Source: Bdellovibrio sp. (GTDB lineage: Bacteria; Bdellovibrionota; Bdellovibrionia; Bdellovibrionales; Bdellovibrionaceae). Taken from it: a stretch of DNA of 64,000 bases. The stretch is from positions 1 through 64,000 of the forward strand of contig JACMNA010000033.1 in the NCBI GenBank assembly GCA_014378765.1. The letters are read 5' to 3'. Shown piece by piece: positions 2,127 to 26,640 of this stretch (position 1 is the first letter of the stretch; every line of letters begins with the position of its first letter). Both the position numbers and the translations under genes were made by a program. The notes below the pieces were generated by a model. The model did no database searches, was not told the DNA's origin, and saw nothing but the letters and a program-made list of their open reading frames with translations.

Positions 2127-3346
2127 AAAGACTCCTTTAAAATAATTCGTTGAAATAAGGCAGAAGAAAGTTCATCGGTACTGGTTAACGCAAGCGGCGC
2201 CTCATTTTGGGCATAAAAAACATACTGATGGCGATGGTTTTTAATATCATTCCAATCATTTTGAACGACGAAATCACAATGCGACGTTTTGAAAAGTGAT
2301 TTTACTTTTTCATCAATTGTTTTTTGATCGATGGTCGAAGTTAATTTAAATCCAACCAAATGACTTTTCGGGCTTAAGGTTTTAATTTGATCGATTAACT
2401 TCGGATTTCTTTTTAATTTTAAGGTGATCTCTTCTTTCGTGCTGCTGATTTTTCCGTCAGTGGGTATAACCGAATAATCGCTAACTGCCGCCATATGAAT
2501 AATCCAGTCGTAATGGTCGGCACGCAATTCTTCGTTAAGTGTTGCCTGCAAATCTAAAAATGACTTAAATGATTTTCGTTTACCAATATGGCTTGGCCGC
2601 TTGGCGTTTTCGGCGTGCAGGTAAGTGACTTCAATTCCTGATTCCATCAACGTGTCGGCAATTTTTGCGGCCGACTGGCCAGTGCTTGAATTAGTAATAA
2701 CACGTACGTCATCGATTGGCTCTGTAGTTCCGCCCGAAGTGATTAAGACTTTAATGTTTTTAGCGGTAGGCATCTTTTCAGAATTAAAGGTTCTAGTAGT
2801 TTCGTGATCAAGCAGGCGTGTTTCAATTTCTTGCACAATCAACTCCGGCTCAAGTAAGCGCCCGTAACCCACTTCGCCGCAGGCTAAAACGCCCGAAGCC
2901 GTTTCTAAAATTTCAATCTTCATTTCTTTTAGCTTTTGAAGCGATGCTTGCGTGGTTGGGTGCAAATACATCATCGTATTCATCGCCGGAGCAATTAAGA
3001 AGGGCTTTTTAAAATCGTGAGAAAGAAAAAGAGTTGTTAATAAATCATCTCCCAGGCCGTAAGCAATTTTATTAATGTAGTTGGCGGTGGCCGGGGCCAC
3101 AATTACTAAATCGGCCCAGCGATTTAAATGAATGTGATCCATATTCTGGCCCGAAGCGTACATGTCGGTTACCGGGGCTTCGCCAATAAGCCCTTCAATT
3201 GTCGCGCGGCCGATAAATTGTAAACTGCTGGGCGACATGACCACCTTAATTTGGTGCCCATTTTGTTTAAGCTTCGATAAAATACCGCACGCCTTGTAGC
3301 AAGCAATTGATCCCGTCATTATAAAAAGAATATTAGATTTTAACAT
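2123..3346 (-). CDS. coaBC: Bifunctional phosphopantothenoylcysteine decarboxylase / phosphopantothenate-cysteine ligase
   Basis: Ligates cysteine to 4'-phosphopantothenate (CoaB, C-terminal) and decarboxylates the product to 4'-phosphopantetheine (CoaC, N-terminal, FMN-dependent). CoaC signatures: [10 protein letters not shown] near residue 10, the PAMNTMMY substrate-binding motif (PxMNxxM), and the [14 protein letters not shown] loop with the catalytic-type Cys. CoaB begins at about residue 200 with [14 protein letters not shown] and contains IHMAAVSDY. An upstream TTG (3352) has a GAGG 4 nt away, while the ATG at 3346 is 10 nt from it; I prefer the ATG. It overlaps the end of panC by 14 bp and coaX by 4 bp (ATGA). 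Confidence 0.95.
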
Positions 3347-4094
3347 TGTCAATCAACCTCACATCGTCAATGAAGGCCGCAACAAAACGGCGATCAAAGT
3401 GATCTTCTAAATATTCTACTTTTATTTTTTCTTTTTCTAAAACCGCGCGGGCTTGTTCGGGGGTTCCCGCCGCTGACAACGTCTTGAAAATAAGTGGAGC
3501 TTTTTTGCGTCCCGCCGATGAAAGCCGAACATTTCTAGAACTCATGGCTAAACCGTCGGCCTCGCGGTAAGTGGGGCAGGATACAATTTCAGTCGATACA
3601 AAAAAGGCTTTAGCCATGCTGATGATTAGTTGCAGTTGCTGATAATCTTTTTCACCAAAATAAGCTTTATCGGCTTTAGAAATTTGTAACAGTTTCATAA
3701 CGACGGTCAGTACGCCATCAAAGTGGCCCGGGCGGTGCGCTCCACACAGCATTTTTGAAAAATCATTCTCGGTTAATTTAAATTTGTAATCGTCTGGATA
3801 GATTTCAGCATACATCGGGGCTAGCACTGCATTGGCTCCGCTTTGTTCGGCTAACTGCAAATCGGCTTCCCACGTTTTTGGGTATTTTTTTAAGTCGTCC
3901 GCATTATTAAATTGAGTTGGGTTCACGTAAATAGTTACAACGGTAAAATTATTTTCAGCACTACTACGCGAAATTAAACTAGCGTGGCCGGCATGTAATG
4001 CGCCCATCGTTGGAATCAAGCCAACTGAGCCGCCGAGTGAATTGCGATACTGCATAAACTTAGAAATCGATGTAAAAGTTAAAAGTTTATTCAT
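3333..4094 (-). CDS. panC: Pantothenate synthetase (pantoate-beta-alanine ligase)
   Basis: ATP-dependent condensation of pantoate with beta-alanine to give pantothenate. The 253-aa reading has the HIGH-like PTMGALHAGHASLI, the VNPTQFN pantoate site, the GAHRPGHFDGV block, YFGEKDYQQ, and the KMSKS-like block AMSSRN, in the family order. The frame is open further upstream to an ATG at 4142, but that would add 16 residues inside panB with no ribosome site. The ATG at 4094, which overlaps the panB stop by 8 bp, matches where PanC proteins normally begin. It lies in the minus-strand pantothenate/CoA operon between panB and coaBC. Confidence 0.95.
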   Translation of the reverse strand: MNKLLTFTSISKFMQYRNSLGGSVGLIPTMGALHAGHASLISRSSAENNFTVVTIYVNPTQFNNADDLKKYPKTWEADLQLAEQSGANAVLAPMYAEIYPDDYKFKLTENDFSKMLCGAHRPGHFDGVLTVVMKLLQISKADKAYFGEKDYQQLQLIISMAKAFFVSTEIVSCPTYREADGLAMSSRNVRLSSAGRKKAPLIFKTLSAAGTPEQARAVLEKEKIKVEYLEDHFDRRFVAAFIDDVRLIDNVKI

Positions 4095-4878
4095 AACTTT
4101 GTTCTTTGGTTGGAAATTTTTTAGTTTGCACTTCGGTAACATAAGAATTAAGCGCTTCGGTAATTAAATCGGCACCTTCCATAAACTTTTTCAAAAATTT
4201 AGGATTAAAATTTTTATTCATTCCAAGCATATCTTGTAGCACTAAAATTTGTCCGTCGGTTTCGGCACCCGCGCCAATGCCAATGGTTGGAATAGATAAT
4301 TGCGAGGTAATATGACTGGCAAGAGAAGTGGGCACACATTCTAAGACAAGGCTAAAGCAACCGGCCTTCTGCAGTGCTAAAGCATCGTTTGAAATTTTTA
4401 AGGCGGCCGCTTCGTTTTTTCCCTGAATTTTGGGCCCACCTAATTGATGTATGGATTGGGGAGTTAAGCCGAGGTGGCCCATCACGGGCACTCCCGATTC
4501 AACGATATGTTGAATCAATTGAATGTGCCCATCCGCCCCTTCAATTTTTATCGCGTTGGCGCCAGCCTTCATTAATTTTTCAACTTGATCCATAGAATTT
4601 TTTAGCCCTTTACGCGTTGACATAAAGGGCATGTCCGCCACGACAAATTGCCCGCTAGCCGCACGCACAACAGCGGCCGTGTGCAAAGCCATCAAATTTG
4701 TTGAAGCTTGCAGAGTAGTTTTATGTCCGTGCATCACTTGAGCTAAAGAGTCTCCAACTAAAATGGCATCGACCTGACTTTGTGATATCAGTTGCGCAAA
4801 ACTTGAATCATAACAAGTAATCATCGTAATTTTTTGGCCATTAGCTTTCTTCTTTTGAAAATCTAAAATAGTTTTCAC
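4087..4878 (-). CDS. panB: 3-methyl-2-oxobutanoate hydroxymethyltransferase
   Basis: Makes ketopantoate from alpha-ketoisovalerate and 5,10-methylene-THF, the first step of pantoate synthesis. At 263 aa it has the usual length. Seen signatures: MITCYDSSFAQL, the metal-site Asp in DAILVGDSLAQVMHGH, the VVADMPFMS strand, IKIEGADG, MGHLGLTPQS, and the PTIGIGAGAETDGQILVLQDMLG block near the C-terminus. The start codon is GTG, overlapping the stop of the preceding DUF2520 gene as GTGA, with AGGAG 8 nt upstream. This coupling puts the DUF2520 protein directly into the pantoate pathway. Confidence 0.96.
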   Translation of the reverse strand: MKTILDFQKKKANGQKITMITCYDSSFAQLISQSQVDAILVGDSLAQVMHGHKTTLQASTNLMALHTAAVVRAASGQFVVADMPFMSTRKGLKNSMDQVEKLMKAGANAIKIEGADGHIQLIQHIVESGVPVMGHLGLTPQSIHQLGGPKIQGKNEAAALKISNDALALQKAGCFSLVLECVPTSLASHITSQLSIPTIGIGAGAETDGQILVLQDMLGMNKNFNPKFLKKFMEGADLITEALNSYVTEVQTKKFPTKEQSYE

Positions 4879-5579
4879 TGGCTAAACTCCTCCGCAAAAG
4901 ACTGATATACTTTTTTGAGTTTCGAATTAGTGAGAGCCGCAGAATTTTCTTCGATCGTTTTTAAATCTTTTCTAACGAACGGACCAGTTAATGCGTTGTT
5001 CTTAAACTGAATAAAATTTTCGGTGATTTGACGAATGTAGAGATGTACGGCGGCTTCGGGAATATTAAGCTGCAGTAATTTCGGAAAAGTCTCAGACCAC
5101 AAAAGTTGAGGAAAGTTACCACTAACTACGCACAGCGCATGGTAAAGCGCTTTGTCTTGCGCCGCCATGAGCGAAAAACCATTTGTAAAACCCGGCATGA
5201 CTTCGTAAAGTTTTGTGACACCGGTCAAGGCAAAATGGATTTGTGAGTACACTTCGGATTTAAGAAGCGACTTTGGAAAGCTCATTAGTGGATGGGCACT
5301 GACCATGCGGTCTTCGTAAACCGCGCCACTAAAGTGCAGGACCGTTAAGTTTTTCTGACTTAAGTGCTTATCGTAAAAAGAAACTAAGGCTGAGTCTGAA
5401 ATTGCCAGCCATACAATTTGAACTTGAGCTAGCTTGTCATTAAGCAGTTTGAGATCTTGAGAACGATCCCAATCAAGTAGAACATTGGGTGATTGTAATT
5501 GGGAATTCCAGAAGTGAAGATGCTGGGCTAAACGGCCCGAGCCAATTAATAGTATAGTTGCGCGATCAAAAGCAGTCAT
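4875..5579 (-). CDS. Rossmann/DUF2520 protein, candidate ketopantoate reductase (PanG-like)
   Basis: First gene of the pantothenate/CoA operon. The 234-aa protein starts with a nucleotide-binding strand-loop-helix (TILLIGSGRLAQHL), a dinucleotide-binding fold with SG in place of a full GxGxxG. Family marks of DUF2520 follow: LHFSGAVYEDRM, SAHPLMSFP, and near the C-terminus LTGPFVRKD followed by an alpha-helical region. There is no panE-like gene in the operon, although ketopantoate reduction is the only missing pantoate step. As I recall, a DUF2520-type protein named PanG performs this reaction in Francisella and some Firmicutes, so this role is likely but inferred. Start: ATG 5579 with AGAGG 5 nt upstream; a TTG at 5621 lies in frame but is less convincing. 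Confidence 0.8.
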   Translation of the reverse strand: MTAFDRATILLIGSGRLAQHLHFWNSQLQSPNVLLDWDRSQDLKLLNDKLAQVQIVWLAISDSALVSFYDKHLSQKNLTVLHFSGAVYEDRMVSAHPLMSFPKSLLKSEVYSQIHFALTGVTKLYEVMPGFTNGFSLMAAQDKALYHALCVVSGNFPQLLWSETFPKLLQLNIPEAAVHLYIRQITENFIQFKNNALTGPFVRKDLKTIEENSAALTNSKLKKVYQSFAEEFSQ

Positions 5580-5705
5580 GTTAACCTCTGGTACCTGTCG
5601 CAAATCAAACTTGCAGATCAAGTCCTTTTAAAACATTTCCGAGCTTTCGCTCTATTCGTGAAATTAGCACTTTTTAAATGAAAAGCAAGCTGTTAAAAGA
5701 AAGCT

Positions 5706-6434
5706 ATGAAAGCAATCTATTGGGTTATAGCCGTCGCGGTCGTTAGTGTAACAGTTTTTATTTACCTCGTGCTGGGAGATTCGCAAAAAACGGTTCCCAA
5801 AATCAAAGTCAGCTACTTTACGAATGAGACTGAAATTGCAAGTTCAATCACGAAAATACTGAGCCAAGAGCTAGTTAAAACTTCGCACTTCTGGGTTGGG
5901 ATTGAGCCTGAAAAATTAGAGCAGCTTAATGTTGTAGTTAGCCTTAAACAAGAATTAGCGAAGCTGAAGCCGCTTCAAAGAGTTATCGTTGATGAAGAAC
6001 TTAAGTTACCAAAAAATTGGCTTGAGCAATTGCAAGCCACTGATTCCATTAATTTCAAAGAAAATATCCAATCAACCGGAGAACTTCTCAAAAGCCTTGA
6101 AGAAAAGAATAGTGGTTATTTTTTTGTAACTGCGAACATATATTCAAATCCATTCATTAAAGAGAATCCGCTCAATAAAATAAAAAAAGAATACCAAATT
6201 CATCCGACTACTTTTTCAATGGCTTATTTTCCGATTGCGGCGGATGACGAAAAAAATATGTTATTTCCTTGCAACGCCGAAGACCACTCGGGAACTTCGG
6301 CTTGGGCCTGCATGGTTTCCAACAAGGCGCGTTTTTCGCGACGAAAAATAGATCTGAAAAATGAAAAACCCTGGATTAGTTTAATGGATTTAATTGGCGA
6401 AAAAGATTACATGATTTTATTAAAGAAGAGATAA
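5706..6434 (+). CDS. Membrane-anchored protein of unknown function
   Basis: I do not recognise the family. The 242-aa protein has one N-terminal hydrophobic segment (about residues 4-24) after a single Lys, so it is probably anchored in the inner membrane with most of the chain in the periplasm. The soluble part is mixed alpha/beta with a long charged helical stretch (residues about 60-125) and two Cys near residues 195 and 207 that could pair. It is divergent from the CoA operon (about 125 bp between starts) and its stop overlaps the start of the next gene as TAATG, so the two are translated together and probably act together at the membrane. Confidence 0.75.
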   Translation: MKAIYWVIAVAVVSVTVFIYLVLGDSQKTVPKIKVSYFTNETEIASSITKILSQELVKTSHFWVGIEPEKLEQLNVVVSLKQELAKLKPLQRVIVDEELKLPKNWLEQLQATDSINFKENIQSTGELLKSLEEKNSGYFFVTANIYSNPFIKENPLNKIKKEYQIHPTTFSMAYFPIAADDEKNMLFPCNAEDHSGTSAWACMVSNKARFSRRKIDLKNEKPWISLMDLIGEKDYMILLKKR

Positions 6435-7372
6435 TGCGAGTTCGAAACGCTGATCTAGAAATTAAGCGTGCCGCTCAGCTATCGGTAATTGAAATTTCAT
6501 TAGGATCAATTGGGCATGGCTTTCACTTTCCTTTGACGGGGCATGTTCTTTCTTTAAACCAACTAGCCTTTTTATTAAATGCGATCAATCACGACCAACT
6601 TATGATTTCATCGACCTTTGAAATATCAAGTATTGCTGCGGTCTTAAAATCATTTTCGCCGGCGGGCGCAAAACTTGGGCCCATGCTATCTATATCGGTG
6701 CAAGGATTTTTGTTTTGGCTGTGCTGTTCGCTATCGAGGGGGCATGTTGCTGGTCAGGTCGTTGGAGCGGTAGTTATGTCGCTATGGGCTTTTATTCAGC
6801 CGCTGTTATCGTACATCATCGTTTTTGGTTTGAGTTTAGTAAGCGTGATTTCGTTTTACGAAACTCGCATAAAAAAAGATTACGCCTTTATTGCTCAGTC
6901 TATCTTGGTGGCAATAGCCTTCGTTGTGTTGCTCAAAATATTAATTGCGATAAGCTTAGTGATTTATAGTGTAATCACAAAAAAAGCAGTTCGCATAATT
7001 GAAGTGGGCCCCTATTTAAAGAAATATTCTTCTGTTACCCAACCAAGACCCGCACACAGCGCGTGGAAGGCCGCCTTGCAAGATATACTTAGACCATTAT
7101 TCGCAATTAGTTTCATCTTATTGCTATTTTTCATTTCTCAGCTTGAAAGCAGCTTCAGCGAAAAAATTTGGATTGCTTTACGACCCTTAGCGATTGCATT
7201 TATACTTTTTTATTTGATTCGTAGTCATTGGGTCGCAGAGAAATTAAGAATTCTTTCAACAAAATCGCGCTTTGTTGAAAGAATTTATGCTAAATCAAAA
7301 ACCGCTTTCAACCTCATGGCTGAGGGGGCGACGGGGAGCTCGAAAGTAAGTTCGGGGCGACAAAGCAAATAA
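6434..7372 (+). CDS. Polytopic membrane protein, ECF S-component-like
   Basis: A 312-aa protein with about six predicted membrane segments (for example residues 88-110, 118-142, 148-172, 226-246, 252-270). The N-terminal part SLGSIGHGFHFPLTGHVLSLNQ resembles the start of vitamin or precursor-binding S components of energy-coupling-factor transporters and related prenyl-synthase subunit I proteins, but I cannot name a substrate. No ECF ATPases or T component lie next to it. It is coupled to the upstream membrane-anchored protein by a 1-nt TAATG overlap. Its last 26 codons overlap antisense the 3' end of the 5'-nucleotidase gene on the other strand by 78 bp. Confidence 0.75.
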   Translation: MRVRNADLEIKRAAQLSVIEISLGSIGHGFHFPLTGHVLSLNQLAFLLNAINHDQLMISSTFEISSIAAVLKSFSPAGAKLGPMLSISVQGFLFWLCCSLSRGHVAGQVVGAVVMSLWAFIQPLLSYIIVFGLSLVSVISFYETRIKKDYAFIAQSILVAIAFVVLLKILIAISLVIYSVITKKAVRIIEVGPYLKKYSSVTQPRPAHSAWKAALQDILRPLFAISFILLLFFISQLESSFSEKIWIALRPLAIAFILFYLIRSHWVAEKLRILSTKSRFVERIYAKSKTAFNLMAEGATGSSKVSSGRQSK

Positions 7373-8683
7373 GTCATCAATCTTTGACATGTAGACGCAG
7401 GCGTAGCGTTCCATCTGGTACGCGAAGTAGCTTTCTTCATTACCCGCCCGCATTAGTTGGCCCCAGTTTGGATTATAAACTGCTTGCTGCTTACGAATCA
7501 ATTGGCTGATCATGGTGTCGATGGCCGTAATTTGCTCTTGCAGTTCATCAATGCGATCTTCATTAACCGGAGATTCTTTCTCAATTTTTTTCGTCATCAC
7601 ATCAGTGAGTTCATCTTCAAGCGGTTCTTTTTTTCTCATCAACAAATCGATTTCGGCAATAATTGGTAAATTTAAGTTATTATTCTTTAGTTCATTTTCA
7701 AGTTCTTCGATAATCATCGCCGTGCGCCAGTTACAATCTTTTTTCAGTCGCAAGATGTCGCCGTAAATATGATCGCCGATATATAGAATATCATCGCCGT
7801 TCAAACCCAAATCTTCGGTGAATTTACGCGCATTGCCGCTTTGGTAAACGCCTGGGCCTAATTTTGCATCCATGTTGCTCATGGTTCCGGTGTTAGGATC
7901 AACTTTTAAGAATTTAAGATCATCGTAGAAGAATTTTGGTTTCTGCGCAAAGGTAATAACCATTTCAAAAAGATCCACCCAAGACTTGTGGTCTTTTAAA
8001 AATGGATTAATCGCGTAATCAAGTAGAAGTTTCGAGTAGTAAAAATCTGAATTAGTTAAAATAAAAATCTTTTTGCCGTGTTTTTTAAATTTTTCAATTC
8101 CGCGGACGATACTTTCATCTTTAATAATGTACTCACCTAAATTTTTCGCCACTTCGTCTTTAATTGAACCGTCGCGGTGCGCCTCGTCTAAGGCGTCTAA
8201 AACGTCATCTGACATCTGCGCATAGTCTGGCAGTTTTAATAACGGGTCGGCGTCTTTCATCTCAACTAATTGCGAGTAAGCATGGGCTAATGAATAAGAA
8301 AAGCTTGTATCGATCGCTAGATAATCCGTTTTACTTAAGTCGATGTAAGTTGATTTATAAACTTTTTGGTGTGATTTAAAATCTAGAGGCTTCAGCCCGT
8401 GAAAGCTATTACGTATGGCAGTGTAGCGATTTAATTTTAAAAGATTTCCTTTTTTGCGGTCAACCACTAGGCCACGTAAGGCGAAGTTGAAGTCAAACTG
8501 CAATTTTTTAATAACCTCAGGATAATTTTTTCGGCTGACTAATTTTTCTATAATCTTCGTGTGCGAAAGTCGCTCGAAATTTTCGGTGTTGTAGCGAATC
8601 AAGGTATGATCCATATCTAGTCCGATATACTTTATCTTTTTTAAATTCAGGGTGCGGTTAACAAAAACTTTTGACTGGCGCAT
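7295..8683 (-). CDS. HAD-family 5'-nucleotidase (cytosolic purine 5'-nucleotidase type)
   Basis: Predicted to dephosphorylate nucleoside 5'-monophosphates. The 462-aa protein carries the HAD motif I DMDHTLIRY with the nucleophilic Asp and the general acid Asp two residues later, motif II ILTNSDFYY, and motif IV YIGDHIYGDIL, all in the arrangement of the HAD-IG / cN-II group best known from animals but also found in Bdellovibrio-type and other bacteria. A charged coiled-coil region at about residues 335-395 and the C-terminal APRRPLSHE block also match that family. It follows the rhodanese gene with only 12 bp between them, so they are probably one operon. Confidence 0.88.
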   Translation of the reverse strand: MRQSKVFVNRTLNLKKIKYIGLDMDHTLIRYNTENFERLSHTKIIEKLVSRKNYPEVIKKLQFDFNFALRGLVVDRKKGNLLKLNRYTAIRNSFHGLKPLDFKSHQKVYKSTYIDLSKTDYLAIDTSFSYSLAHAYSQLVEMKDADPLLKLPDYAQMSDDVLDALDEAHRDGSIKDEVAKNLGEYIIKDESIVRGIEKFKKHGKKIFILTNSDFYYSKLLLDYAINPFLKDHKSWVDLFEMVITFAQKPKFFYDDLKFLKVDPNTGTMSNMDAKLGPGVYQSGNARKFTEDLGLNGDDILYIGDHIYGDILRLKKDCNWRTAMIIEELENELKNNNLNLPIIAEIDLLMRKKEPLEDELTDVMTKKIEKESPVNEDRIDELQEQITAIDTMISQLIRKQQAVYNPNWGQLMRAGNEESYFAYQMERYACVYMSKIDDLFALSPRTYFRAPRRPLSHEVESGF

Positions 8684-8695
8684 CGGGTACTCTCT

Positions 8696-9052
8696 TTATT
8701 TTTCTGTAGGTAATTGCAATTGATTCCATAACAACATTCCGCCGGCCATGTTATAGACGGTGTCGAAACCCTGCTGCTTGGCAAAGCTAGCCGCTTGGGC
8801 CGAGCGTCCGCCCGAGCGGCAAATAAACACAATGGGTTTTTCTTTCGGTATGGAATTTAAATTTTGTGGAATAGATGATAGCACGACTAACTGAGTGCCC
8901 TTAATATGGCCGAGTTCGCCCGTATATTCGACGTTTTCACGTACGTCAATTAACGTAAGCTCTGTCTGATGCTCGTTCACCTCTTGCGGAGGCACATCAG
9001 TCACATTTGGAAAATTTGGGTTAGGGGTCTGGGTTGTAAATTTGTATGACAT
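8696..9052 (-). CDS. Rhodanese-domain sulfurtransferase
   Basis: A single-domain rhodanese of 118 aa, cytoplasmic (no signal peptide). The active-site loop CRSGGRS carries the catalytic Cys (residue 78); LIDVRENVEYTGELGHI and the C-terminal NMAGGMLLW are the usual flanking blocks. Such proteins carry a persulfide on the Cys and hand sulfur to acceptors or detoxify sulfide or cyanide; the partner cannot be told from the sequence. It leads a probable two-gene operon with the 5'-nucleotidase and is divergent from the PIF1-like helicase gene, 125 bp away. Confidence 0.9.
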   Translation of the reverse strand: MSYKFTTQTPNPNFPNVTDVPPQEVNEHQTELTLIDVRENVEYTGELGHIKGTQLVVLSSIPQNLNSIPKEKPIVFICRSGGRSAQAASFAKQQGFDTVYNMAGGMLLWNQLQLPTEK

Positions 9053-9177
9053 AGGTTTAATAGTTTACACGAAGGCTTTATACCCCCGCAACTAAATCTG
9101 ATGTCTAAGACCCTAAAAAGATTGGCGCACCCTATTCTTTTGACTGGAATGCGATTCGGCGTGAGCATAAAACCCTC

Positions 9178-10437
9178 ATGAACCTAGAAAAACAAGAATC
9201 ACTTATTCAGCTTTCCGCAGAGCAAAAACACGCTTTCGAAATGTGCCAATCGGGTGAGAACATTTTTTTAACGGGCGGGGCGGGTTCAGGCAAAAGCTTC
9301 GTGGTGCGCGAGTTTATGAAAGACAAAAACGATAAAGAAATGCCAATATTAGCCAGCACGGGCGCGGCCGCCGTGCTGTTAGGCGGTCGTACCTTTCATA
9401 GCTTTTTTGGGCTGGGCATAATGGAAGGCGGAGCGCAGGCAACCTTTGCCCGCGTCATAAATGACAAAAAAACCATGAAAAGAATTCGGCAAGTTGAGGG
9501 CGTTATCATTGATGAAATATCGATGATTCCGGGTGATGCCTTAATGGTCGCCGAAATGATTTCACAAGCCGCGCGCGAATCAAGTTTACCGTGGGGCGGA
9601 ATGCGAATGATTGCGGTGGGTGATTTTGGTCAGTTGCCACCGGTGACGCGCTTTGGGCAAAAACGTGACTGGTGTTTTTTAAACGATGTCTGGCGAAAAA
9701 CTGATTTTCAAATTTGCCATCTCAATTTAAATCAAAGAATACAAGATAATGAATTTCTAAATGTGCTATCCGATATTCGCGAAGGTCAAATTACCGAACG
9801 GGTGAAAGACTTTTTGCAAGACCACACTCAGGCCCACGATGAAGATCATCCGGGCACAAGATTATTTCCACGCCGAGATCAATCGGAAGAATACAATCAG
9901 AAAAAACTAGCCGAAATAAATGAAGACGAAGTTATAATTGATTCAATTTATTTCGGTGAGCAAAGATATATCGAAATTTTAACTAAATCGGCCCCGGTGC
10001 CGCAACAATTGAAATTAAAAGTGGGTTGCCGCGTTTTATTTTTAAAAAATGACTCACAAAAGCGCTGGGTGAATGGTACGCGCGGAACGCTCGTTCATTA
10101 TCAGCCTGACCACCTAGTTGTTCGAAAAGAAGGCGGTCGAGAAGTCACCGTCGAAAAATTTTCTTTTTCGCTGTTGGATGCAGACGGCAATATGAAAGCC
10201 AGTGTTATACAATTTCCTGTTAATTTAGCTTACGCCACCACCATTCATAAATCGCAAGGGGCAACCCTTGATGAATTGTGGTGTGATTTAGGCTCATTGT
10301 GGGAGCCGGGGCACGCCTACGTGGCCCTTTCGCGGTTACGTGATGCCAGCGGACTTCATATTGTGCGCTGGCATCCACGTTCAATCATTACCGATCCGGC
10401 CGTCACGGCTTTTTATAAAAACAGCTTGCCTAGCTAG
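9178..10437 (+). CDS. PIF1-like superfamily 1B DNA helicase
   Basis: ATP-driven 5'-3' helicase of the PIF1/RecD2 group. At 419 aa it is a minimal helicase without accessory domains. Seen motifs: Walker A GGAGSGKS (about residue 34), motif Ia ASTGAAA, Walker B IIDEISMI, motif III GDFGQLPPV, and near the C-terminus TIHKSQGATLD and YVALSRLRD (motifs V/VI). A likely SH3-like insertion lies around residues 280-335. PIF1 proteins unwind G-quadruplexes, R-loops and stalled forks; the role here is inferred. There is no clear Shine-Dalgarno before the ATG, and a CATAAA box ends 6 nt upstream, so a short-leader or leaderless mRNA is possible. Confidence 0.88.
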   Translation: MNLEKQESLIQLSAEQKHAFEMCQSGENIFLTGGAGSGKSFVVREFMKDKNDKEMPILASTGAAAVLLGGRTFHSFFGLGIMEGGAQATFARVINDKKTMKRIRQVEGVIIDEISMIPGDALMVAEMISQAARESSLPWGGMRMIAVGDFGQLPPVTRFGQKRDWCFLNDVWRKTDFQICHLNLNQRIQDNEFLNVLSDIREGQITERVKDFLQDHTQAHDEDHPGTRLFPRRDQSEEYNQKKLAEINEDEVIIDSIYFGEQRYIEILTKSAPVPQQLKLKVGCRVLFLKNDSQKRWVNGTRGTLVHYQPDHLVVRKEGGREVTVEKFSFSLLDADGNMKASVIQFPVNLAYATTIHKSQGATLDELWCDLGSLWEPGHAYVALSRLRDASGLHIVRWHPRSIITDPAVTAFYKNSLPS

Positions 10438-25483: not shown

Positions 25484-25867
25484 ATGGCTAAGAGCACGGG
25501 ATCTAAAGTTACTGAAAAGGTAGTTAAAGAGTGTCGCGATAAGTTGATGAAGACGAAAATGGACTTATTAAACCGTGTGAGAGAAGCCCGCGAGAAATTA
25601 GATCTAGGTGAAAAAGGTGGAGACGAAGCCGACCAAACCATGCGCCTTTTAGCCGAACAAGAAATGTTAAATTTAAATGATCGACTAAGATCACAATTAT
25701 TTGAAATTGAAAGCGCCTTAGGCCGCATCGAAAACGGATCATTCGGAAACTGCGAAGAGACCGACGAAGCGATCGAAGTTGAACGTCTACGCGCAATTCC
25801 TTGGACTCGCTTAAGCATCGAAGGTGCTGAGATTCGCGAGTCGGTAAACCGTCGTTACGCTCGGTAG
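25484..25867 (+). CDS. DksA/TraR-like protein with degenerate zinc finger
   Basis: RNA-polymerase secondary-channel protein of the DksA type, expected to act with ppGpp on stable-RNA and stress promoters. The 127-aa protein has the coiled-coil hairpin (residues about 10-80) with tip acidic residues Asp47 and Asp50, matching the DxxD of DksA, followed by the C-terminal globular part GRIENGSFGNCEETDEAIEVERL. The four zinc-binding Cys of DksA map to Cys90, Thr93, Ser111 and Gly114, so three of four are lost and zinc cannot be bound in the usual way. An AACGGAGG ribosome site precedes the ATG. A strong terminator follows. Confidence 0.88.
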   Translation: MAKSTGSKVTEKVVKECRDKLMKTKMDLLNRVREAREKLDLGEKGGDEADQTMRLLAEQEMLNLNDRLRSQLFEIESALGRIENGSFGNCEETDEAIEVERLRAIPWTRLSIEGAEIRESVNRRYAR

Positions 25868-25875
25868 TTTTTAAG

Positions 25876-25911
25876 ATTTATTCTCTTGCTAAATTAAAGC
25901 CCTCAAGTGAA
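25876..25911. repeat. 36-bp direct repeat, left copy
   Basis: Identical over all 36 bases to 26417-26452. Read on the minus strand it contains the last ten codons plus stop of the small secreted protein gene at 26419-26640, so it looks like a copied 3' end of that gene. Beyond the exact match the two copies stay related: both continue to a GGG(C/T)TTTTTC(A/G)TTTA stretch. It lies right behind the DksA-like gene. Confidence 0.85.
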
Positions 25912-25926
25912 CCTTGCGGGCTTTTT
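25896..25926 (+). terminator. Intrinsic terminator of the DksA-like gene
   Basis: AAAGCCC-T-CAAG, loop TGAAC, CTTG-C-GGGCTTT followed by further T residues: an 11-bp stem with one mismatch, 29 bp after the stop codon. The 5' arm is part of the 36-bp repeat, while the 3' arm is unique to this copy. Confidence 0.8.
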
Positions 25927-25981
25927 CATTTAGTACAATCCAATTTCTTGATTTATAAATTAAGTTAGGCAAACAACTTCT

Positions 25982-26407
25982 ATGAGCAGCAGGTATCCAA
26001 TAAAAAAAATAGTGACTGCACTTGCAATCGTATTCGCTATCATTTTTTCTGTGGCACTTTACGGGCAATCGTTTTGGGGTGGCAAAACAATGTCTGCAAA
26101 ACAAATTAAGACAAAATGGGGAGCCGAAAAGCTAGATGCTGACAAATTTCGAACAGGAAATTATGAAATTAAATCTAAAATGGCCTATGCTATTTTGACA
26201 GATAAAACTTTAGTCGGGAAATCTTATGATGAAATTCGTAAATTGTTTGGTGAAAATGATGGATTCTATTTTGTAGATACTTTTCCAACTTATATTATCC
26301 AAAGGGGAAAAGACCATTCCGAAGATACGTGGCAAATAGTATTTAGAATGGATCGAAATTTCAAAGTACGAGATGTAATTATGCATAAGAACTGCTGCGA
26401 GAGATAG
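25982..26407 (+). CDS. Membrane-anchored protein, possibly SmpA/BamE-like
   Basis: A 141-aa protein with an N-terminal membrane anchor or uncleaved signal (about residues 9-28). The exported part ends with a segment LVGKSYDEIRKLFGEND, followed by strands WQIVFRMDRNFKVRDVIM, which is the pattern of the small two-helix three-strand SmpA/BamE-like fold; this is a pattern match by eye. There is no lipobox Cys, so it is not a BamE lipoprotein. Two adjacent Cys sit at the C-terminus. It is framed by the 36-bp direct repeats and has an intrinsic terminator at 26441-26486. Confidence 0.68.
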   Translation: MSSRYPIKKIVTALAIVFAIIFSVALYGQSFWGGKTMSAKQIKTKWGAEKLDADKFRTGNYEIKSKMAYAILTDKTLVGKSYDEIRKLFGENDGFYFVDTFPTYIIQRGKDHSEDTWQIVFRMDRNFKVRDVIMHKNCCER

Positions 26408-26416
26408 CAAGTCGCA

Positions 26417-26452
26417 ATTTATTCTCTTGCTAAATTAAAGCCCTCAAGTGAA
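26417..26452. repeat. 36-bp direct repeat, right copy
   Basis: Exact copy of 25876-25911, overlapping the 3' end of the minus-strand small secreted protein gene (26419-26640). Here the repeat belongs to an intact gene, so this is probably the original and the left copy a duplicate. The pair encloses about 0.5 kb with a single complete gene. Confidence 0.85.
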
Positions 26453-26640
26453 ACAGCAGAAGCTGTGCGATCTTTGAGGGTTTTTTCGTTTACGATGCCT
26501 AAGTGGCGTTGAATTTCGGCCGCTAAGCGCATTTGATCTTGATGGCTTTCTTCGATGAGCTCATCGAACTGAATATCTGCCGCAAACATATTAAAACTGT
26601 ACATAAAAACCAAAATTGCAAAAATCCATTTAATGCTCAT
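26419..26640 (-). CDS. Small secreted protein, 73 aa
   Basis: Signal peptide with core WIFAILVFMYSF and likely cut after FAA, leaving a mature chain of about 52 mostly helical, acidic residues. The ATG at 26640 is preceded by AGGAGG at 5-nt spacing, which is among the best ribosome sites in the window and rules against the longer frame from 26673. No family recognised. Its last codons are copied at 25876-25911, and the DNA of its 3' end doubles as a terminator for the plus-strand gene before it. Confidence 0.72.
   Translation of the reverse strand: MSIKWIFAILVFMYSFNMFAADIQFDELIEESHQDQMRLAAEIQRHLGIVNEKTLKDRTASAVSLEGFNLARE
26441..26486 (+). terminator. Intrinsic terminator inside an opposing coding sequence
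   Basis: Outer stem CCCTCAA (26441-26447) with TTGAGGG (26474-26480), inner hairpin ACAGC-AGAA-GCTGT (26453-26466), then six T (26481-26486). It lies 34 bp after the stop of the 141-aa protein gene and within the 3' coding part of the minus-strand secreted-protein gene. Confidence 0.7.

Follow-up and report, generated by a model that had tools for sequence, protein, structure and literature searches.

Two identical 36-nt sequences lie 541 nt apart, from start to start, in a genome of Bdellovibrio sp. (G000) and enclose a single gene, which raises the question of how the end of one host gene came to stand on both sides of another, and what the enclosed gene might do. The present study, which covers a window of 64,000 nt (the whole stretch of DNA that was analysed) and compares it with related genomes, suggests, with a probability of about 0.6, that the locus is a small islet in which an acquired orphan immunity gene adjoins the 3′ end of X1, our name for a small secreted-protein gene whose tail was duplicated; the duplication would be att-like, made by a recombinase, and the gene product would be protective. 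There is good support for a transferred insert at this locus.

The two copies occupy positions 25876-25911 (copy B) and 26417-26452 (copy A) and are exact, as the original prediction described, with the 141-aa reading frame (25982-26407, plus strand) between them. The right copy consists of the last 10 codons and the stop codon of the 73-aa gene X1 (26419-26640, minus strand; stop codon at 26419-26421), together with 2 nt, and translates as SLEGFNLARE-stop; its earlier assignment to an intact small secreted-protein gene is correct. The left copy is a duplicate of this X1 3′ end and starts 8 nt past the stop codon of the native left neighbour, a DksA/TraR-type zinc-finger gene (dksA; 25484-25867, plus strand). 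Both ends of the insert thus carry a direct repeat derived from the 3′ terminus of an intact gene, as in an element of the attL/attR type. The 505-bp insert itself (25912-26416) contains the 141-aa gene as its sole credible gene and has a GC content of 35% (34.9%) versus 41.5% for the window, and a GC content as low as that of the 141-aa gene is found in just 2.7% of gene-sized windows. Within the whole window, the 36-nt pair is the sole high-identity direct repeat of at least 24 nt with a spacing of up to 3 kb, the four remaining direct-repeat families being 73-80% identical. When the 2.87-Mb genome was searched at up to 3 mismatches, the sequence was recovered as two copies, both at this locus, with zero matches for the reversed-pattern control, and no exact copy was found in genome_contigs or in viral_contigs. 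A dispersed terminator or repeat family, which the original prediction had named as the explanation to be preferred if many genome copies existed, is ruled out by this count of two.

Both copies take part in terminator-like hairpins on the plus strand. One, at 25885-25938 (-20.6 kcal/mol, z -4.9), has one arm in copy B and the other in the insert, and the second, at 26417-26492 (z -2.8), overlaps the X1 3′ coding end. The first of these is long and includes a T-run, and its insert arm, GGGCTTTTTCATTTAGTA, nearly matches a segment of the repeat in inverted form. The T-rich end beyond the left copy had been read as the decayed remainder of a longer ancestral match; this reading is not supported, copies A and B forming different hairpins.

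The junction can be seen without the insert in relatives. X1 homologues were searched for in 13 other genomes of the genus, with 39 genomes in all, and were found in three of the 13 (G004, G010, and G008). In G004, the dksA and X1-homologue reading frames overlap by 4 nt with nothing between them, which is the empty site that the proposed comparison with relatives lacking the 141-aa gene was meant to find; in G010 and G008 the X1 homologue also lies close behind dksA without the 141-aa gene, and X1 is missing from this position in G003, the closest relative by DksA. Because the dksA-X1 junction exists in relatives without the 141-aa gene, the 541 bp comprising one repeat and the insert represent an addition, and copy B lies at the native junction. 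At the G004 junction, the stop codon of dksA overlaps that of the X1 homologue (L024 1881-1884), and it appears that the end of the X1 coding sequence also serves as one arm of a terminator.

A second insertion is present in the same genome. Specifically, the only other member of the 141-aa family in G000, with 47% identity, lies on contig C87 and converges on lptG (LptF/LptG family), and on its far side the lptG 3′ end recurs as a copy of 92 nt (85% identity) that stops precisely with the stop codon. The end of C87 shares 141 nt with contig C120, which leads on into a gene that we take, from its sequence, to be def. The family gene therefore lies between lptG and def, with the 92-nt copy preceding def, whereas in relatives def follows lptG within ~20 nt at all eight junctions examined. 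The downstream copy (copy B) keeps the native spacing to def and is altered at conserved residues (Pro to Arg, Gly to Glu), which fits a tail that is out of use; identity to the relatives is 0.52-0.74 for copy A and 0.51-0.70 for copy B. The cassette has the same orientation as that in the window.

What the inserted gene encodes is suggested by two independent comparisons. The AlphaFold2 model of the 141-aa protein (pLDDT 87), which has a predicted N-terminal membrane or signal helix at residues 7-31, finds as its best fold match the Bacteroides fragilis type VI secretion system (T6SS) immunity protein BtiO (9uu1; Z 9.9, rmsd 2.6, 91 aligned residues), with the next row at Z 4.7, a shared fold that alone shows no function. 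From the other side, the family gene lies directly behind a DUF6973 gene in 22 of 36 loci by Pfam matches, and the DUF6973 profile matches the B. fragilis T6SS effector in PDB entry 9uu0 (E 2.2e-6). Entries 9uu0 and 9uu1 appear, from their titles and numbers, to be a cognate pair, and the two comparisons together make an orphan immunity gene the most likely identity of the 141-aa gene, as judged from its modelled fold. The correspondence has its differences: sequence identity to BtiO is 11%, no effector gene adjoins the gene in the window, which does not stand directly behind a DUF6973 gene, and the DUF6973 partner in relatives, compared with the B. fragilis effector, is small, with a hydrophobic stretch at its N terminus. 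Several other loci, for example those in G073 and L172, have the family gene behind a broken or shortened DUF6973 gene, as would be expected where an immunity gene outlasts its toxin. Among 140 genomes of the order, the family is found in 36 and DUF6973 in 37, with both in 27, which leaves nine genomes with the family and without a DUF6973 match. The protein may shield the cell from a DUF6973 toxin delivered by competitors or other predators. G000 does contain one divergent DUF6973 gene (G000:C141:12535-12825), which is near neither orphan immunity gene. A fold search with a DUF6973 model gave no meaningful match, and the 141-aa protein belongs to no significant family in Pfam, NCBIfam, PADLOC, or PHROG. 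A phage or plasmid origin was considered and rejected, the 141-aa protein having no match in phages, plasmids, or IMG/VR and X1 none in phages.

The distribution of the family across the order is patchy (profile A1 matched 36 of the 140 genomes), and self-comparison of 36 loci and five from named records showed that 7 of the 41 are framed by copies of the adjacent gene's end. Besides X1 and lptG, the targets are a phospholipase-D-type (PLD) gene (30 nt, 97% identical, reaching to the stop codon) and mutS2 (21 nt, 95%), both in a Bacteriovorax stolpii MAG, two tRNA-Leu genes (73 nt, 90%, in G074; 25 nt, 96%, in G073, where the DUF6973 gene is a remnant), and a tRNA-Pro gene in G038, where there are four tRNA-end copies and the DUF6973 and family genes are the sole content of a 1.1-kb unit. 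Repeat lengths run from 21 to 92 nt, cassettes occur in both orientations relative to the target gene, the repeat ends within 2 nt of the stop codon in all four protein genes, and the insert has a lower GC content than the surrounding locus in 7/7. Gene-end framing is absent in the other 34 loci, which may reflect age or another history. Further matches outside the 41 loci, in G026, G024, G132 (two), G021 (C178), G035 (C3), and G046 (C1), revealed no framing within 900 nt on each side; a match in G106 was also outside the 41. Framing flagged by script in G022 and G051 was rejected (repeat pairs at least 1.0 kb from the gene, with equal spacing, that are not gene-end copies), as were the tRNA-Thr end copies in G123, which lie beside and not around the family gene: there, copies of the tRNA-Thr 3′ end and terminator stand between the tRNA and an orphan family gene (L124 6488-6805). 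In G046, an orphan family gene converges on a tRNA-Val gene 74 bp away, with no repeat detected (L117 5880-6445). The four tRNA-Pro 3′-end copies of G038 (L110, G038:C33:4300-16600, at 2487-10367) partition ~8 kb into three units: one carries fragments of a resolvase and a transposase as well as a toxin-antitoxin pair (Gp49/HTH), another has the DUF6973 pair alone, and the remaining one encodes large extracellular-type proteins.

In 257 kb of G000 (the window and 20 further stretches, with 405 gene ends), the sole gene-end duplication was the window repeat, detected from both sides. A tRNA lies within 1.5 kb in 8/40 family loci, compared with 6/1896 positions in the G000 sample and 18/463 distal positions in the family loci. 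Twenty tyrosine-integrase regions of the order (815 ends) yielded three islands bounded by tRNA-end repeats, two additional matches being repeats inside one of these three, and they indicate that classical integrase islands at tRNAs exist in this order. None of the 20 regions had an island bounded by protein-gene-end repeats; compared with them, protein-gene-end framing is seen with this cassette only. In distant relatives, the arrangement sits at target genes other than X1, so its recurrence there, which the original prediction had held against an insertion, carries no such weight and instead strengthens the mobile-cassette reading.

These data separate the two histories between which the original prediction had left the choice. 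A gene insertion that duplicated the 3′ end of its target is backed by the empty site in G004, the lptG insertion in G000, and the five further framed loci. Partial tandem duplication with loss, or in its other form a dispersed terminator repeat, would account for the overlap between the repeat and terminator-like hairpins, and is hardly credible given that the sequence has two genome copies only, that G004 has an empty site, and that the insert is foreign-looking and homologous to a gene family found elsewhere; a simple tandem duplication is ruled out by the last point, the insert being a separate gene family. In the model that we favor, the laterally acquired orphan immunity gene would be the retained half of a DUF6973 effector/immunity cassette that entered at the X1 3′ end and duplicated the X1 tail. 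The incoming element would bring the tail that keeps the target gene whole; since the insertion duplicated the tail, X1 keeps its full length through copy A, and the former junction with dksA is marked by copy B. The duplication itself would represent an attL/attR-like pair, the product of a site-specific recombinase (probably of the tyrosine type) supplied in trans, on the pattern of islands at tRNA 3′ ends. The integrase islands found here are bounded by tRNA ends only, and extension of the tRNA-island model to protein-gene ends is accordingly an analogy. No recombinase gene was found inside the framed inserts, and the two Phage_integrase matches of G000 lie on C48 and C65, neither being the window's contig. 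Moreover, insertion in both orientations is unusual for one integrase specificity, and no motif common to the targets is visible by eye. A tyrosine integrase gene is located beside tRNA-Arg in L165 (9796-11112), 3.6 kb from the PLD cassette and outside its repeats.

A recombinase in trans is our first choice of mover, by analogy with the tRNA islands, and one-sided homologous recombination and the trimming of a larger island are serious rivals. Homology-facilitated illegitimate recombination, or a single crossover of a circle carrying a gene end and the cassette, would need no integrase: the incoming tail would recombine with the chromosomal tail and the far side would join illegitimately upstream of the stop codon. 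Such a process accounts for the variable repeat length and the absence of recombinases, fits both the stop-codon boundary in 4/4 protein genes and the direct abutment of the cassette on copy B in L165 and L172, and has been proposed, in the available text of PMC5361080, for Vibrio immunity-gene arrays. It requires, however, a donor with the cassette already behind the same gene, of which none was present for X1, lptG, PLD, or mutS2 among the loci fetched, and it leaves the tRNA excess unaccounted for, so that we consider it unlikely. Slightly less so is the possibility that the islet is what is left of a far larger island at the X1 end, from which the integrase and most of the cargo were deleted, leaving one gene and the att sites. 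The tRNA-Pro array of G038, whose tRNA-end copies enclose pieces of a resolvase and a transposase as well as a toxin-antitoxin pair, resembles such an island, and DUF6973 has been cut down to a remnant in several loci (G073, L172). Yet several independent loci would need to have been trimmed to the same one or two genes, and the 3′ edge of the family gene lies within 10 nt of the repeat in the window, C87, G038, L165, and L172. An ordinary target-site duplication of the transposon type, or the capture of a passing gene during double-strand-break repair, the survivors being those in which the host gene was kept intact, would suit repeats of 21 to 92 nt and the two cassette orientations; it appears very improbable, as neither the stop-codon boundary in 4/4 protein genes nor the reuse of one gene family is expected from it, and no exact inverted repeat of at least 11 nt flanks the family gene in the window or at C87.

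Parts of this picture have precedents. Genomic islands and satellites at the 3′ ends of tRNA or protein genes are bounded by direct repeats that consist of the target's 3′ end, and the target is restored. The gene-tail-framed cassettes are like them in both respects, and tRNA cases were seen in the integrase regions of the order, but at 0.5-1.2 kb, with no integrase, and with unrelated protein genes targeted by the same cargo, they are also unlike them. That orphan immunity genes occur on mobile or islet DNA is already known. In the rAID systems, as far as the available text of PMC12247911 goes, orphan immunity genes are linked to a recombinase and spread via mobile DNA, a likeness to the present case; those systems are co-oriented gene arrays with a tyrosine recombinase and conserved intergenic motifs, whereas here there is a single gene, no recombinase or integrase on the contig, and repeats derived from a host gene tail. 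The SAIDI-1 islet of Salmonella Typhi (PMC7400221) and the immunity arrays of Vibrio cholerae (PMC5361080) retain orphan immunity genes without the effector; these are multi-gene and confined to one place, and single-gene units framed by duplicated gene ends are not described in the available text of either report. Toxin/immunity cassettes of myxobacteria reside in prophage-like units, according to the available text of PMC5562445. Literature searches found nothing on DUF6973, nothing relevant on the BtiO/BteO pair, nothing combining orphan immunity, genomic island, and direct repeat, and no gene-tail-framed immunity cassette of this kind, in a coverage that lacked most subscription journals.

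Predatory bacteria constantly meet foreign DNA because they attack other cells, and what began as an odd repeat becomes a testable case of immunity genes spreading without their toxins in such bacteria. It is a doubtful proposition, offered tentatively, that the framed loci belong to an undescribed class of 0.5-1.2-kb non-autonomous effector/immunity cassettes of Bdellovibrionales and relatives, for which a recombinase in trans would use the 3′ ends of numerous unrelated protein genes and tRNAs as exact insertion points, whatever the orientation of the cassette, with the tail duplicated so that the target is undamaged and the toxin often lost later. If the cassettes do move as units, the 3′ ends of genes would be a general safe harbour for tiny mobile units. 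If this is true, such units would escape island finders built on integrases and tRNAs. The duplication of a gene tail can in itself serve as a signature in searches.
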